NCBI RefSeq assembly: GCF_000518085.1
Contig: NZ_JACX01000008.1
Location: forward strand, 1-64,000
Length of the DNA stretch: 64,000 nt
Source of the DNA: Bartonella grahamii ATCC 700132
Lineage (GTDB): Bacteria > Pseudomonadota > Alphaproteobacteria > Rhizobiales > Rhizobiaceae
Direction: 5' to 3'
Each line of letters begins with the position of its first letter. Position 1 is the stretch's first letter. The notes under the pieces were generated by a model. It searched no databases. It was not told the DNA's origin and was given only the letters and a program-made list of their open reading frames with translations. Both the position numbers and the translations under genes were made by a program. Shown here one piece after another: positions 9,370-49,288 of this stretch.

Positions 9370-10179
9370 TTAGTGGTCAAAGTTGATAAAATGGGCAAGT
9401 GCAATACCTGAGGCTGTGGCAACATTAAGGCTGTCAAAACCGTTAGTCATGGGAATACGTAAAGTTTTTGATTGTTGTAGTATATGGGTCGGTAAGCCAT
9501 CGCCTTCTGTTCCAAAAATAAGTGCCATTCTTTTAGTTTTGTTGGCTTGCTTGAGAGTGTGTGAAGCAGAAGGGGAGAGTGCATAAAGATGAAAGTTTTT
9601 ATCCTTTAGAGCAGCTATAATGTCATTTATATCAGCGTTTTGCGTATAGGGTACTTTTAAAGCAGCGCCGGCAGAAACTCTTATTGATTTACGATAAAGT
9701 GGATCGCATGAGGTTTTGTCGACAATAATGCCATTACTGGCAAAGGCTGCTGCATTACGAAAAATTGATCCCATATTATCGTGATTCGAGATACCACATA
9801 AAACAAGAATCAAAGCTTTTTCTGGAAGATGTTGTAGAAAACTTTGTAAGGATGGCAGTGTTTTGCGTTTACCAATACCCAGAACACCACGATGAACATG
9901 GAAGCCGGTGATATTATCCATGACTTTTTGTGGAACACAATAAATGGGACATAGAGGCTGTGTTTTTTCTAAAAGCGGTAGAAGTCCAGAGAGACGGTTT
10001 GCTACGATGAGCAGTGAGATGGCAGAAAAATCTTTCGAGTGCAGTAAAGCGGACAATGTTACTTTGCCTTCAGCAATAAATTGATGTTGCCGTCCAACAA
10101 GATCTTTTTCACGGATATTATGATAGGCTTTTAGGCGTGGATCATCTGTTTTATTGATTGTTATGATATTCAAATGCAT
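9370..10179 (-). CDS. SpoU/TrmH-family RNA 2'-O-methyltransferase
   Basis: 269 residues. The SPOUT knot motifs are present: motif 1 GISNHDNMGSIFRNAAAF, motif 2 LIFGTEGDGL, motif 3 IPMTNGFDSLNVATASGIAL. The N-terminal FIAEGKVTL region matches the RNA-binding substrate domain of RlmB/TsnR-type enzymes. It methylates a ribose 2'-OH in rRNA or tRNA using SAM. The exact target cannot be told from sequence. It stands alone, convergent with mnmA. Confidence 0.88.
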   Translation of the reverse strand: MHLNIITINKTDDPRLKAYHNIREKDLVGRQHQFIAEGKVTLSALLHSKDFSAISLLIVANRLSGLLPLLEKTQPLCPIYCVPQKVMDNITGFHVHRGVLGIGKRKTLPSLQSFLQHLPEKALILVLCGISNHDNMGSIFRNAAAFASNGIIVDKTSCDPLYRKSIRVSAGAALKVPYTQNADINDIIAALKDKNFHLYALSPSASHTLKQANKTKRMALIFGTEGDGLPTHILQQSKTLRIPMTNGFDSLNVATASGIALAHFINFDH

Positions 10180-10287
10180 GCGAGATTTTTAGTGCTTTTT
10201 TCTTATGATTTCCAGATGTTAGAATTTATTTTATTTAAAAAAAAGAGATAAAAAAACATTATTTTAAAACTTATGGTAGAATTTATG

Positions 10288-10314
10288 TTGACAATATACA
10301 ACCATAGGTATAAT
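10288..10314 (+). promoter_or_regulatory. Consensus sigma-70 promoter for small RNA
   Basis: Perfect -35 TTGACA (10288-10293) and perfect -10 TATAAT (10309-10314) with a 15-bp spacer, two bases short of the ideal 17. The predicted start of transcription is near 10321. No coding gene begins downstream for 600 bp, but a structured, terminator-ended segment does. Confidence 0.65.
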
Positions 10315-10320
10315 ATAAAA

Positions 10321-10453
10321 ATACTGGTACGGAATCATATATTTTTCTCGTATCGGGTGCAGTGTCTTGGGTCCCCGCTATTTCCCAAGTTCTGTATGCC
10401 CTTAATTTCTAAGGGAAAAGAATCTGGGTCCCCAATGCCCAGATTCTTTTTTT
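10321..10453 (+). ncRNA. Candidate small RNA, three stem-loops with C-rich loops
   Basis: About 132 nt from the promoter above to a T7 tract. Hairpin 1: CTTGGG / CCCAAG (10366-10389) with a loop starting TCCCC. Hairpin 2: CCCTTA / TAAGGG (10399-10415). Hairpin 3: an 11-bp stem AAGAATCTGGG / CCCAGATTCTT (10418-10448), also with a loop starting TCCCC, running into Ts as a rho-independent terminator. The GGGTCCCC module is thus used twice. C-rich loops can pair with purine-rich ribosome-binding sites, so a trans-acting regulator is plausible. No known family was recognised. Confidence 0.65.
10418..10453 (+). terminator. Rho-independent terminator of the small RNA
   Basis: An 11-bp perfect stem AAGAATCTGGG / CCCAGATTCTT with a 9-nt loop, followed by a T7 run. 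It is the 3' end of the RNA candidate. Confidence 0.85.
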
Positions 10454-10940
10454 GAGGGTATCACTGTTCTTCTTTTTTATATCTCAATTTTTTAGTAAAT
10501 CATATTTTAAAATGCGGTTGACCTGTAAGGTTACAGTAGAGTGCTAAGATATTTTTCTAAGGTGCAAAGATGGCTTATAGATGGGTTATAATGCGCATCA
10601 TAAGACTGAAAAATAATGCATGATCTTGATACATTTGAGCAAAAAAGTTTTTCATTTATGAGATGTGAGATGGCTTTAAGTTATTCAGAAAACGATTAAT
10701 AATGAAGGTGATGTGTTTGATTGCTCTTGGGAAAGCTCTTTGTTTATTCTGTTCCTCTCTTCTTCCTTTATTGATTCTATTCGTGTAACTGAGCAGTTTT
10801 TACGATAATAATGTGAGCTGAAGCGTTTATTGTATGCTGAAGCTTCTGTAATATTGAGGAAATATTGTCGATATGCCAAAAGTATAATTATATGGTTGAA
10901 AATATTAATCCCTTATTTCGTGAAGAAAAGGATGAGGTTC
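10454..10940. other. Spacer without a gene
   Basis: AT-rich, between the small RNA and the cation-efflux gene. No coding frame with a credible start, no RNA fold and no repeat was recognised. Confidence 0.5.
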
Positions 10941-11849
10941 ATGGATGTAAAAATCAATATACAAAGCTTAACTTTATACTCTATTTTTATTGCGTGTATT
11001 GTTTTTGCTTTGAAATATTGGGCATATCACATCACAGGTTCGGTTGCACTTTATTCTGATGCATTGGAATCAATAGTTAATATTCTTGCGTCATTGGCAG
11101 CATGGTGGGCTGTTAAAGTGAGTATGAAGCCAGCGGATCAGGATCATCCCTTTGGGCATCATAAAGCAGAATATTTTTCCGCAATTCTTGAAGGGATACT
11201 CATTATTATTGCGGCAATTGTTATTTTAAGAGAAGCATGGATAGCTCTTTCTACCGTTCAATTATTGCAGAAGCCTGGAATATGGCTTGTTATTCATCTT
11301 ATTGCAACTGTTATAAATTGTATGTGGGGAATGGTCCTTATTTGGCAGGGAAAACATCATCGCTCACCGGCTCTTAAAGCTGATGGAGTCCATTTTATAA
11401 CAGATGTTTTTACTTCGCTTGCAATTTTAATTGGTCTGATTGCTGGTTTTGTAGGAGGATGGGGAGTTTTAGATCCAATTTTAGCGATAATCGTTGCCGT
11501 TAATATTCTCTTGCAGGGATGGAAGGTGATTAGAAATGCTGTTCAGGGGTTAATGGATGTCGGCGTTGAATTGAATGAAAGCATGCGGATTCGGGAGCTG
11601 ATTTCTGCAAATGCATCTGGTGCGCTTGAGGTTCATGATTTACGAACGCGTGTTGCTGGGAGGGTTACTTTTATAGAGTTTCATTTGGTTGTGCCTGCTG
11701 TAATGCAGGTAGGAGAAGCACATAAAATTTGTGATAAAATCGAAGGTGTTCTTCAAAAAGAATTTGATAATGTGCGTATTTCTATTCATGTCGAGCCTGA
11801 AGATGAGGCAAAATTGCCTCCCGGTACAACGGTGGTACCTTTTATATAA
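10941..11849 (+). CDS. Cation diffusion facilitator (CDF) family transporter
   Basis: 302 residues with about six membrane segments and a soluble C-terminal domain. The metal site in TM2 reads SDALESIVN, the HPFGHHKAEYF loop follows TM2, and the TM5 site reads ADGVHFITDV (HxxxD). The C-terminal part ending FDNVRISIHVEPED is the ferredoxin-like cytoplasmic domain. Such proteins export Zn, Fe or Mn in exchange for protons. The start at 10941 is favoured because AAAAGG lies 10 bases before it; other in-frame ATGs lie upstream (10830, 10932). Confidence 0.9.
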   Translation: MDVKINIQSLTLYSIFIACIVFALKYWAYHITGSVALYSDALESIVNILASLAAWWAVKVSMKPADQDHPFGHHKAEYFSAILEGILIIIAAIVILREAWIALSTVQLLQKPGIWLVIHLIATVINCMWGMVLIWQGKHHRSPALKADGVHFITDVFTSLAILIGLIAGFVGGWGVLDPILAIIVAVNILLQGWKVIRNAVQGLMDVGVELNESMRIRELISANASGALEVHDLRTRVAGRVTFIEFHLVVPAVMQVGEAHKICDKIEGVLQKEFDNVRISIHVEPEDEAKLPPGTTVVPFI

Positions 11850-13946: not shown

Positions 13947-14681
13947 TTTTGCATTAACAATTCATGACTAACTATTTCTAAAAGTGCTATTTTTAAATGC
14001 GTATCATGATTATCATTAGATTTAACGGTAGCATATAATCATTAAGAGCATCAATGAATATAAAGATATAATCATGGTTTTTAAGGTTACACAAATTGCA
14101 AGCAATATGAATAGTTTCTAAGATTATAGAATCAAAGAATATTTCTCTATAATATACTTATTTTTTAAATAAAATGATTGTCAGATAAATACTTTTAAAA
14201 ATATGATGAGCTTTTTATGTTGTTAAGCTGTTCGGGTGATGCTGCTTTAACCTTATAGCACATTCTGAGGGTGAGAAAAATTTTTAAGAGCTTATCATTA
14301 TAAAAGATTTCAATTGCTAGAGGATATCTAACGTATCAAATGGAATTGAGATTCCTGAAAACGGTGGTATGAAAAGAGGAAATGATGTCTGATAAAATCC
14401 ATCATAATGTCTCTAAAACTATTGGAAATACTCTGTGTTTCATGAAATTTTGTTTATGAGTTGGTCGCACAAATATTTTATTCGTATAATGCAAAAAAAT
14501 ATTTTTATGCTTTGACAATGATATATCAATTAAAGATATACTAATTAAAATGTAATTTTATATTTTTATCTTGACTCTTACTTAAATTTTTACTTTGTTA
14601 TTATTTTATATGTGACAAGTATATGGTATAGAATACTTTTAAAAGGAAAAGGGAGTAAAAAGATAGCGGGGGAGTAATTGT
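13947..14681. other. Spacer between divergent genes
   Basis: 0.7 kb, AT-rich, between the lipoprotein gene and the MFS gene. Apart from the Fur-like box at 14002-14020, nothing recognisable was found. Confidence 0.5.
14002..14020. promoter_or_regulatory. Fur-box-like 19-mer
   Basis: TATCATGATTATCATTAGA matches the palindromic Fur consensus GATAATGATTATCATTATC at 15 of 19 positions, with an unbroken core ATGATTATCATTA. It lies upstream of the DUF1460 lipoprotein gene. In Rhizobiales metal control is shared by Fur/Mur, Irr and RirA, so which protein might bind is unknown. Confidence 0.4.
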
Positions 14682-16896: not shown

Positions 16897-18093
16897 TTAA
16901 GATATTTTTTTATAATTCATAATGAGATCACAGAAATGCTGAAAGAGGTAGTGGCTATCTTGTGGTCCAGGAGAAGCTTCGGGGTGATATTGAACAGAAA
17001 AAACTGGTTTTCCAATGATTCGAATACCACAGTTTGAACCATCAAAGAGAGAAATATGTGTTTCTTGAACATGTTGTGGTAAAGAGGCAGAATCTACGGC
17101 GAAACCGTGATTCATCGATACAATCTCAACTTTTCCAGTGTTGAGGTCTTTAACTGGGTGGTTGGCACCATGATGTCCTTGGTGCATTTTCACGGTTTTT
17201 GCACCAACCGTAAGAGCAAGAAGTTGGTGACCAAGACATATTCCAAAAATTGGTAAATTATGATCAATTAATGTTTTGATCGTTGGAACGGCATATTGAG
17301 CCGTAGCTGCGGGGTCCCCTGGTCCATTAGAAAGAAAAACGCCATCAGGGTTCATTGCTAGAATTTCTTTTGCAGTTGTGTGGGCAGGTACAACAGTAAT
17401 GCGTGCTTTTTGTGTTGCCATAAGGCGAAGAATATTGCGTTTAATACCATAGTTAATTGCAATGATATGAAGATTGTGCACATTGTTTGTACCGTATCCT
17501 TTATTCCAACTCCATGGTTTTTCATCCCATTGCATTGATGATTGAGATGTCACGTCTTTCGTAAGGTCAAGATTGACGAGACCGTGCCATTTTTGCGCAC
17601 GTTTCTTTAATGAAGGAATATCAAAAATTCCATTAGAATCATGTGCAATGACAGCATTTTGCGCACCTTTTTCACGAATAAGAATTGTGAGCGCACGTGT
17701 ATCAATACCACAAAGTGCAATAATTTTACGCGTTTTAAGCCATTGATGAAGATTTTCATTGGCACGATAATTTGAGGGATGTGTAATGTCTGCCTTGAAA
17801 ATAGCGCCAACAGCACCATGACAATTGAGAGGGGAGAGATCTTCAATATCTTCGCTATTTGCCCCTACATTTCCTATATGAGGAAAAGTAAAATTAACGA
17901 TTTGTTGTGTGTATGACGGGTCTGTGAGGATTTCTTCATAGCCTGTGATGGCGGTGTTAAAACACACTTCAGCTTCAGCAATACCTGTAGCACCTGCTCC
18001 TTTGCCTTCAATAACGGTTCCATCAGCTAAGACTAAGAGGGCTGTAGGTTTTTTGATACTCCAAGGGTGGCTGAGTGAAGTCGTTTGTATCAT
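16897..18093 (-). CDS. carA: Carbamoyl-phosphate synthase small subunit CarA
   Basis: About 398 residues. The N-terminal CPSase domain carries FNTAITGYEEILTDPSY. The C-terminal class I glutamine amidotransferase has VFLSNGPGDP, the nucleophile Cys in FGICLGHQLLAL, and His/Glu in VQYHPEASPGP. CarA splits glutamine and feeds ammonia to CarB for carbamoyl phosphate, used in arginine and pyrimidine synthesis. An extra ATG lies five codons upstream (18108). carB is not in the window. It is divergent from the YqeY gene. Confidence 0.96.
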   Translation of the reverse strand: MIQTTSLSHPWSIKKPTALLVLADGTVIEGKGAGATGIAEAEVCFNTAITGYEEILTDPSYTQQIVNFTFPHIGNVGANSEDIEDLSPLNCHGAVGAIFKADITHPSNYRANENLHQWLKTRKIIALCGIDTRALTILIREKGAQNAVIAHDSNGIFDIPSLKKRAQKWHGLVNLDLTKDVTSQSSMQWDEKPWSWNKGYGTNNVHNLHIIAINYGIKRNILRLMATQKARITVVPAHTTAKEILAMNPDGVFLSNGPGDPAATAQYAVPTIKTLIDHNLPIFGICLGHQLLALTVGAKTVKMHQGHHGANHPVKDLNTGKVEIVSMNHGFAVDSASLPQHVQETHISLFDGSNCGIRIIGKPVFSVQYHPEASPGPQDSHYLFQHFCDLIMNYKKIS

Positions 18094-48552: not shown

Positions 48553-48636
48553 AAACATCTTTTTAGACAGGTTTGTTGTAAAATATTTTAAGAGGCTATT
48601 TTCACGGAGCAGAAAATGTTTTATAAATTAATGCGT

Positions 48637-49021
48637 CAGTCGGCTGGGCAGCCGCGCTTGTCTAATGCTAAAATGCGGCAGGTGAGGAAAGTCCGGGCTC
48701 CATGGAAAGACGGTGCCGGGTAACACCCGGCGGGGGTGACCCTAGGGAAAGTGCCACAGAAAGTAAACCGCCTATTTTTATAGGTAAGGGTGAAAGGGTG
48801 GAGTAAGAGCCCACCGCGCATTCAGTAATGAATGTGGCAAGGTAAACCCCACCGGGAGCAAGACCAAATAGAAATGACGTGCAAAATTTAATTTGCAGCC
48901 GATTTCCGGGCGAGTCATTCGGGTAGGTTGCACGAGGCGGATGGTAACATCCGTCCCAGATGAATGGTTGCCATGTAAAGTGTAAGCTTTACTCTACAGA
49001 ACCCGGCTTATAGGCCGACTG
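48637..49021 (+). ncRNA. rnpB: RNase P RNA (type A)
   Basis: 385 nt. The ends pair as CAGTCGGC / GCCGACTG (P1). Universally conserved parts are present: GAGGAAAGTCCGGGCTCC, CAGAAAGTAAACCGCC, GGTAAGGGTGAAAGGGTG, AGAGCCCACCGCG, GGTAAACCCCACCGGGAGCA and ACAGAACCCGGCTTATAG. It forms the catalytic part of RNase P that trims tRNA 5' ends. A short AAGATC / GATCTT hairpin at about 49050 could end transcription. Position upstream of rsmH is common in this order. Confidence 0.97.
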
Positions 49022-49288
49022 ATATTTCATGATGATACGCGATATTTTATAAGATCGATTATATGATCTTTTATGGAGTCTATGTGTTTGAAATGGACAC
49101 TTGAGCAAAGAGTATTTTAAAAAATTATAACATTTCTTTAAGTATAATGCGTTAGGATCTGTCTTGGGATAACTTTAGTTTTTTCGTTCATTGTGATTAA
49201 TATGAAAGTTGAAGGCTAGGTTACTCTAAAATCAGTTGCTATGAGAGAGCTGTTGATTTGAGACAGCATAACTTCAAGACGGATTATT

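Follow-up and report, generated by a model that had tools for sequence, protein, structure and literature searches.

Positions 10288-10453 of the window, by which we mean the whole 64,000-nt stretch of DNA analyzed here (G000:C7:1-64000, from a genome of 2.2 Mb), raise the question of whether they harbor a genuine small-RNA gene and, if so, whether its product controls the genes beside it or acts on distant partners. An earlier sequence-only reading had described the locus as an orphan small-RNA gene with perfect promoter boxes, three hairpins followed by a terminator, and two identical C-rich loops. We examined the promoter, the fold, the conservation and the neighborhood of this putative small RNA (hereafter sRNA), compared it with known small RNAs and predicted its targets.

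Promoter and predicted fold of the sRNA

Both promoter boxes turned out to be exact, as had been claimed: TTGACA occupies positions 10288-10293 on the plus strand, where it also appears in the alignment of the genus loci, and TATAAT lies at 10309-10314. The spacer between them is 15 bp and thus below the usual length; the promoter scan chose the overlapping TAATAT at 10311-10316, which gives a spacer of 17 bp, and the -10 region as a whole is annotated at 10309-10316 on the plus strand. The assertion that few spacers in the window have so clean a promoter held insofar as TTGACA-N14..20-TATAAT occurs once in the 64 kb (0.25 expected), but at least one occurrence was found in 19 of 100 shuffles, and on its own the promoter pair is only mildly unusual. 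Upstream of the -35 box, at 10270-10282 on the plus strand, the alignment of the 36 genus loci revealed a conserved element that reads CTTATGGTAGAAT here and CCTATGGTAGAAT or CCTTAGGTTGTAAAA in relatives. As judged by eye, a CTTATGGTAGAAT-like sequence also precedes some syntenic RNAs outside the genus. An LsrB/VtlR box (consensus GCAT-N3-TG-N3-T in the portions of PMC7486931 and PMC8844928 available to us) was considered for this element and discarded: by eye, none precedes the sRNA, while one is present before L157, a copy of the small RNA ar15.

The transcript would extend from 10321, the 5' end expected from the promoter, to 10453 on the plus strand. Its predicted fold of -51.5 kcal/mol (z -6.9) was matched in stability by none of 200 shuffles and is strongly unusual. 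The minimum free energy fold gives exactly the proposed series of three hairpins and a terminator, all on the plus strand. Hairpin 1 (10324-10356) has a variable sequence and an A/U-rich loop. Hairpin 2 (10357-10397) consists of two stacked stems bearing the near-invariant loop UCCCCGCUAUUU (10372-10383), the proposed pairing or binding site, and is followed by hairpin 3 (10399-10415) and by the terminator (10416-10453), which comprises a hairpin at 10416-10450 with the loop CCCCAAU at 10430-10436 and a T-run at 10447-10453. A simple terminator scan did not list 10416-10453; the fold and the pair counts reported below do show a terminator there.

The motif GGGTCCCC occurs in the window at 10369, 10426 and 17312, where 0.22 copies were expected and none of 100 shuffles contained three, and the two copies 57 bases apart within the sRNA are beyond chance. 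The presence of a repeated C-rich module was therefore upheld, but its hosts are hairpin 2 and the terminator hairpin rather than hairpins 1 and 3. Its placement in loops was correct in part: the GGG of each GGGTCCCC copy sits in a stem, and only UCCCCGCUAUUU and CCCCAAU are exposed.

Conservation and covariation in Bartonella

Of 37 genus genomes, a DNA search matched the sRNA in 36; the 24 genomes representing other genera in the order gave no match. A covariance model built from related genomes, one of the checks proposed in the sequence-only reading, recovered it in the 37th genome (G003, E 7e-24) and in one further genome of the genus, G446. The sRNA is present as a single copy in the window's genome. 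All 35 named stretches bearing the core pattern belong to Bartonella, with the proviso that this pattern was built for a four-C loop and is blind to the five-C form; allowing two mismatches, the core occurred in 7 of 247 genomes, compared with 20 matches for a backwards control, and was uninformative.

We evaluated covariation on an alignment of 36 sequences, 35 of them distinct. In the stems, 17 of the 32 pairs had changed on both sides, namely 4 of 6 outer and 4 of 6 inner pairs of hairpin 2, 3 of 6 pairs of hairpin 3 and 6 of 14 pairs of the terminator. Such two-sided change affected 66 cells, as opposed to 18.3 in shuffles. Paired cells amounted to 96.1% (99.6% in the terminator) and to 36.0-60.5% after sliding the partners, a contrast biased in favor of the structure because the window's own fold supplied the latter. 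The number of paired cells, the numbers of pairs and of cells with two-sided change and the covariation score were each reached by none of 500 shuffles; a fifth measure, further pair types, was reached by 282 of 500. Hairpin 1 was left out of the pair counts because the alignment is poor there. Its sequence drifts freely, unlike the loop UCCCCGCUAUUU, which is nearly unchanged apart from one extra C in genomes bearing trpE(G) and one T fewer in L038. Despite the drift, all 36 genus sequences fold with a 5' hairpin and with both C-rich loops unpaired.

Stems drifting without compensation, the outcome that had been named as speaking against the proposal, are thus not what the relatives display. 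Taken together, genus-wide conservation and two-sided base-pair changes provide good support for regarding 10288-10453 as a small-RNA gene conserved in every Bartonella genome checked. This distribution and the almost unchanged 12-nt loop make the sRNA a promising candidate as core regulator of the genus.

Neighboring genes and relatives outside the genus

The sRNA lies between a divergently oriented gene for a SpoU/TrmH-type RNA methyltransferase (9370-10179, minus strand; PF00588, with the RlmB model TIGR00186 matching under its cut-off) and a downstream cation diffusion facilitator gene (10941-11849, plus strand; TIGR01297, PF01545). Where trpL-trpE(G) is present, it sits between the sRNA and this efflux gene. 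In eight Bartonella genomes and in three genomes of other genera (G354, G467 and G522), the sRNA precedes trpE(G), an anthranilate synthase gene (TIGR01815), and the efflux gene follows the latter.

A search for trpE(G) showed it to be absent from 17 of 25 genus genomes, including the window's own, all of which keep the sRNA. No remnant of the gene was detected in the window, the only such trace being a distant match to its glutamine-amidotransferase half at 16975-17406. G288, from another genus, was likewise negative for trpE(G) with E values up to 1e-100 and retains the sRNA as two tandem copies directly 5' of the efflux gene. The methyltransferase gene is fragmented beside the sRNA in several genomes and went undetected in the fetched flank of L018, L025 and L028, all of which lack trpE(G); the sRNA hence appears to outlast both neighbors. 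The term "orphan" is apt in that trpL-trpE(G) is missing here, but it obscures the fact that the sRNA is the upstream neighbor of that operon in relatives having it. Because Bartonella includes both trpE(G)-bearing genomes and genomes devoid of the gene, the simplest account would be that trpE(G) was lost on two separate occasions while the sRNA was retained. That the sRNA survived when the tryptophan operon next to it disappeared sets it apart from cis control, suggests that its targets should lie elsewhere and opens the question of distant targets to direct testing.

Outside the genus, the covariance model search that matched 13 genomes included nine from other genera, of which we kept four (G354, G288, G467 and G522). 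Of the five others, G318 was dropped after reading and four matched terminator positions only. An earlier search had matched eight genomes, six of them outside the genus, and none of the six was accepted: L043, L044, L045 and L047 were judged to be chance or terminator matches and two were terminator-only. In the four genomes kept, CAGGC stems flank a C-rich loop, and the loops closely resemble UCCCCGCUAUUU.

Several further RNAs were noted at related loci. Tandem sibling copies with differing loops of the GGTTCTCCCCCCGCTATTTTCC and GGTTCCCCC type occur at L074 (7312-7670) and L075 (7428-7850), in the genera of G354 and G288. At L114, L115, L141 and L142, hairpin-rich, terminator-bearing RNAs lie 5' of trpL and are syntenic by eye; we treat them as candidates, too diverged to call homologues. 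The RNA at L076 matched the threonine leader at 27.4 bits, below the cut-off of 55.

Comparison with described small RNAs

Rfam contained no family matching the window's sRNA at threshold, with nine sub-threshold matches at E up to 10, and none matching six related loci at threshold. Elsewhere in the window, at 48636-49026, the same resource identified RNase P RNA (RF00010). rnTrpL is the trp attenuator RNA of rhizobia; the sRNA resembles it in its proximity to trpE(G) but differs in that it contains no Trp-rich peptide, the Trp-rich leader being separate and located downstream. Brt1-9 of Bartonella henselae are, like the sRNA, Bartonella-specific small RNAs, described in the part of PMC5387305 at hand as nine copies of 194-203 nt, each 5' of an HTH gene; in contrast, the sRNA is single-copy in the window's genome and has no adjoining HTH gene. 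A Rhizobiales survey (PMC3927594), as far as its text was accessible, lists RNA family models with representatives in Bartonellaceae. In the portions of the Bartonella small-RNA literature available to us, main texts without supplementary tables, neither this locus nor its distribution and its history with respect to trpE(G) is described.

The closest counterpart by description is BbsR9 of B. bacilliformis, which Wachter and colleagues reported as intergenic and shared by several Bartonella species (PMC7717549). BbsR9 binds the nuoF, gcvT and ftsH mRNAs in gel shifts; among its predicted targets, nuoF ranked first in TargetRNA2 and second in CopraRNA, while IntaRNA placed gcvT first and nuoF tenth (PMC7717549). 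In a comparison by description rather than by sequence, the sRNA shares with BbsR9 an intergenic position, a sigma-70 promoter, an intrinsic terminator, occurrence in several Bartonella species and nuoF as best partner. The traits of promoter, conservation and structure are common to other RNAs and are weakly diagnostic; the coincidence of a tested BbsR9 target with the best partner predicted here is the reason why the two may be the same. On the other side, gcvT, also a tested target of BbsR9, pairs weakly with the sRNA. The comparison of targets covers nuoF and gcvT; a motif test in 566 kb of B. bacilliformis (G009) recognized no ftsH. We regard the identity of the sRNA with BbsR9 as evenly balanced. 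The sRNA is of presumed trans-acting kind and has possibly already been named in one species. Should they be identical, BbsR9 would be extended to the whole genus and to neighboring genera, and its pairing loop would be named.

Predicted targets

The sequence-only reading had proposed searching for targets by matching the TCCCC loops to ribosome-binding sites. A broad action of this kind was not borne out. In a sample of 311 genes, drawn from 464 kb of the genome to which the window belongs, 7-nt loop complements occurred at 4 starts, compared with 8.2 expected with shuffled loops, and 8-nt complements at none, compared with 1.9; moreover, the start sites of this genome favor AAGGA. We therefore rejected a general anti-Shine-Dalgarno action. 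Single targets such as nuoF are plausible on the basis of the following predictions.

Targets were ranked with a home-made seed-and-accessibility score rather than IntaRNA. For the B. bacilliformis homologue of the sRNA, which occupies 1503-1643 on the minus strand of L020, nuoF ranked first among the 120 genes of a first set and first among a set of 433 genes, about 40% of the genome. The predicted pairing spans 22 nt including the conserved loop and covers the 22 bases immediately before the nuoF start, and one of 200 shuffled nuoF leaders attained the same score. When the leaders were widened and the seed was lengthened, nuoF ranked fourth of 433, and the first rank was taken by the sRNA's own antisense, located before the methyltransferase gene. 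gcvT ranked 9th of 120 and, with wider leaders, 100th of 433, and 45 of 200 shuffles equaled it by our own score, which makes for weak evidence. In the window's genome, nuoF ranked 15th of 43 and gcvT came last, with no interaction scored. When duplex energies were calculated without restriction, values as good were obtained in 177 of 500 shuffles for nuoF and in 59 of 500 for gcvT, and neither gene stood out from its shuffles.

In 18 genus loci inspected by eye, GGGG at most 12 nt from the nuoF start was present in none of the five genomes bearing trpE(G) and in 11 of the 13 lacking it. GGGG was present between -20 and 0 in ten of 302 genes sampled from the window's genome. The nuoF start of the window's species reads GGTGGGGT, and the predicted pairing between loop and nuoF was at least as strong as -20 kcal/mol in three of the 18 species of the genus. 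The lack of enrichment at start sites, together with the low ranks of nuoF and gcvT in the window's species, suggests either that targets are few and lineage-specific or that the loop binds a partner other than start sites.

The top rank of 43 in the window's genome went to AAGATAGCGGGGGA at 14660-14673, a near-perfect loop complement before an MFS transporter gene (14696) that matched Tet-like models under their cut-offs. Three near relatives retain no more of it than AGCGGGGG, and the site is absent in B. bacilliformis.

Proposed mode of action and alternatives

The sequence carries the features of a trans-acting base-pairing sRNA, that is, its own promoter, a terminator and a conserved unpaired region. 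We consider it probable that the locus encodes a stand-alone sRNA of four hairpins, possibly BbsR9, that acts in trans through its loop on a few G-rich starts. A sigma-70-type promoter and an intrinsic terminator would yield an RNA of about 130 nt; the loop UCCCCGCUAUUU, aided by its C-rich counterpart in the terminator hairpin, may pair with a few unusually G-rich translation starts and might thereby block ribosome entry. Its best computed partner in B. bacilliformis would be nuoF, and its targets would lie away from trpL-trpE(G), the operon it appears to have outlived. More tentatively, as a reading less likely than not, we propose that the sRNA represents a family outside Rfam whose members lie 5' of trpL-trpE(G) in several Rhizobiales, in some cases as tandem siblings, and that survived two separate losses of trpE(G). 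On this view, the 12-nt loop would recognize a rare G-rich start-site code rather than act as a general anti-Shine-Dalgarno sequence, and nuoF starts would have gained this code in the lineage now devoid of trpE(G).

Two alternatives place the function within the locus itself. The stretch could encode a small peptide: a 60-aa frame spans 10273-10455, and some start codon occurs in the transcript of all 36 relatives. These frames are, however, not conserved, since 3 of 36 genus loci have a frame of at least 50 aa at this place and the maximum frame length within the transcript varies from 6 to 41 aa, and the sequence changes fit the stems, so that we rejected the peptide reading as scarcely credible. 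The sRNA might instead act in cis, as leader or attenuator for trpE(G) or the cation-efflux gene; it lies 5' of both on the same strand, with a strong terminator at its end. Against this, a Trp-rich leader peptide of trpE(G)'s own was found in the gap between sRNA and trpE(G) in all five loci read, and a pattern scan of 32 further regions 5' of trpE(G) detected such a leader in every one. In addition, the sRNA persists without trpE(G), and the efflux gene starts about 490 nt past the terminator. A role as trp attenuator or trpE(G) leader was accordingly dismissed, and cis control in general appears improbable.

Two further alternatives accept a stand-alone RNA and differ in what it is or binds. 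To our knowledge, no protein partner of the sRNA is known; binding of a protein, or titration of another RNA, through the invariant loop would nevertheless agree with how rigidly this loop is kept in a constant structural setting and with the absence of enriched loop complements at start sites. The nuoF pairing in B. bacilliformis and the G-rich nuoF starts of genomes without trpE(G) speak for mRNA pairing, and we judge such binding as the main function to be rather unlikely, though the most serious competitor. A much smaller chance falls to the sRNA being a diverged anti-Shine-Dalgarno RNA of the AbcR (ar15) or NfeR1 (ar14) family, a disfavored reading. With AbcR1/AbcR2 it shares its occurrence in Rhizobiales, a similar size, exposed C-rich loops and, at times, tandem siblings (in G354 and G288), and UUCCC or CUCCCA appears in the terminator loops of some relatives; with NfeR1 it shares several hairpins and C-rich loops. 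Motifs and locus differ, however, and neither ar15 (RF02345) nor ar14 is among the nine Rfam matches at E up to 10. The AbcR motifs in S. meliloti, as defined in the portions of PMC5461406 and PMC8844928 available to us, are CUCCUCCC and UUCCCCUC (PMC8844928), and neither CUCCUCCC/CUCCCA nor UUCCCCUC/GUUCCC was found at the AbcR positions in the sRNA alignments. NfeR1 carries CCUCCUCCC in the unpaired part of each of its three hairpins, according to the text of PMC10746234 that we could consult, and the motif in this form is absent from the sRNA alignment. We rejected membership in AbcR/ar15, as ar15 matches over the cut-off lie at places other than the sRNA locus in five of eight genomes (G014, G354, G467, G299 and G332).

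We made two further minor observations. The ar15 copy over the cut-off in G014 is L157, whereas the window's genome holds a weakened ar15 candidate at L159 (G000:C6:69266-69382; 27 bits against a 40-bit cut-off) that keeps CCTCCCA and GTTCCC. In B. bacilliformis (G009:C4), the methyltransferase gene starts about 100 nt from the sRNA, and a long leader of this gene would be antisense to the 5' end of the sRNA.
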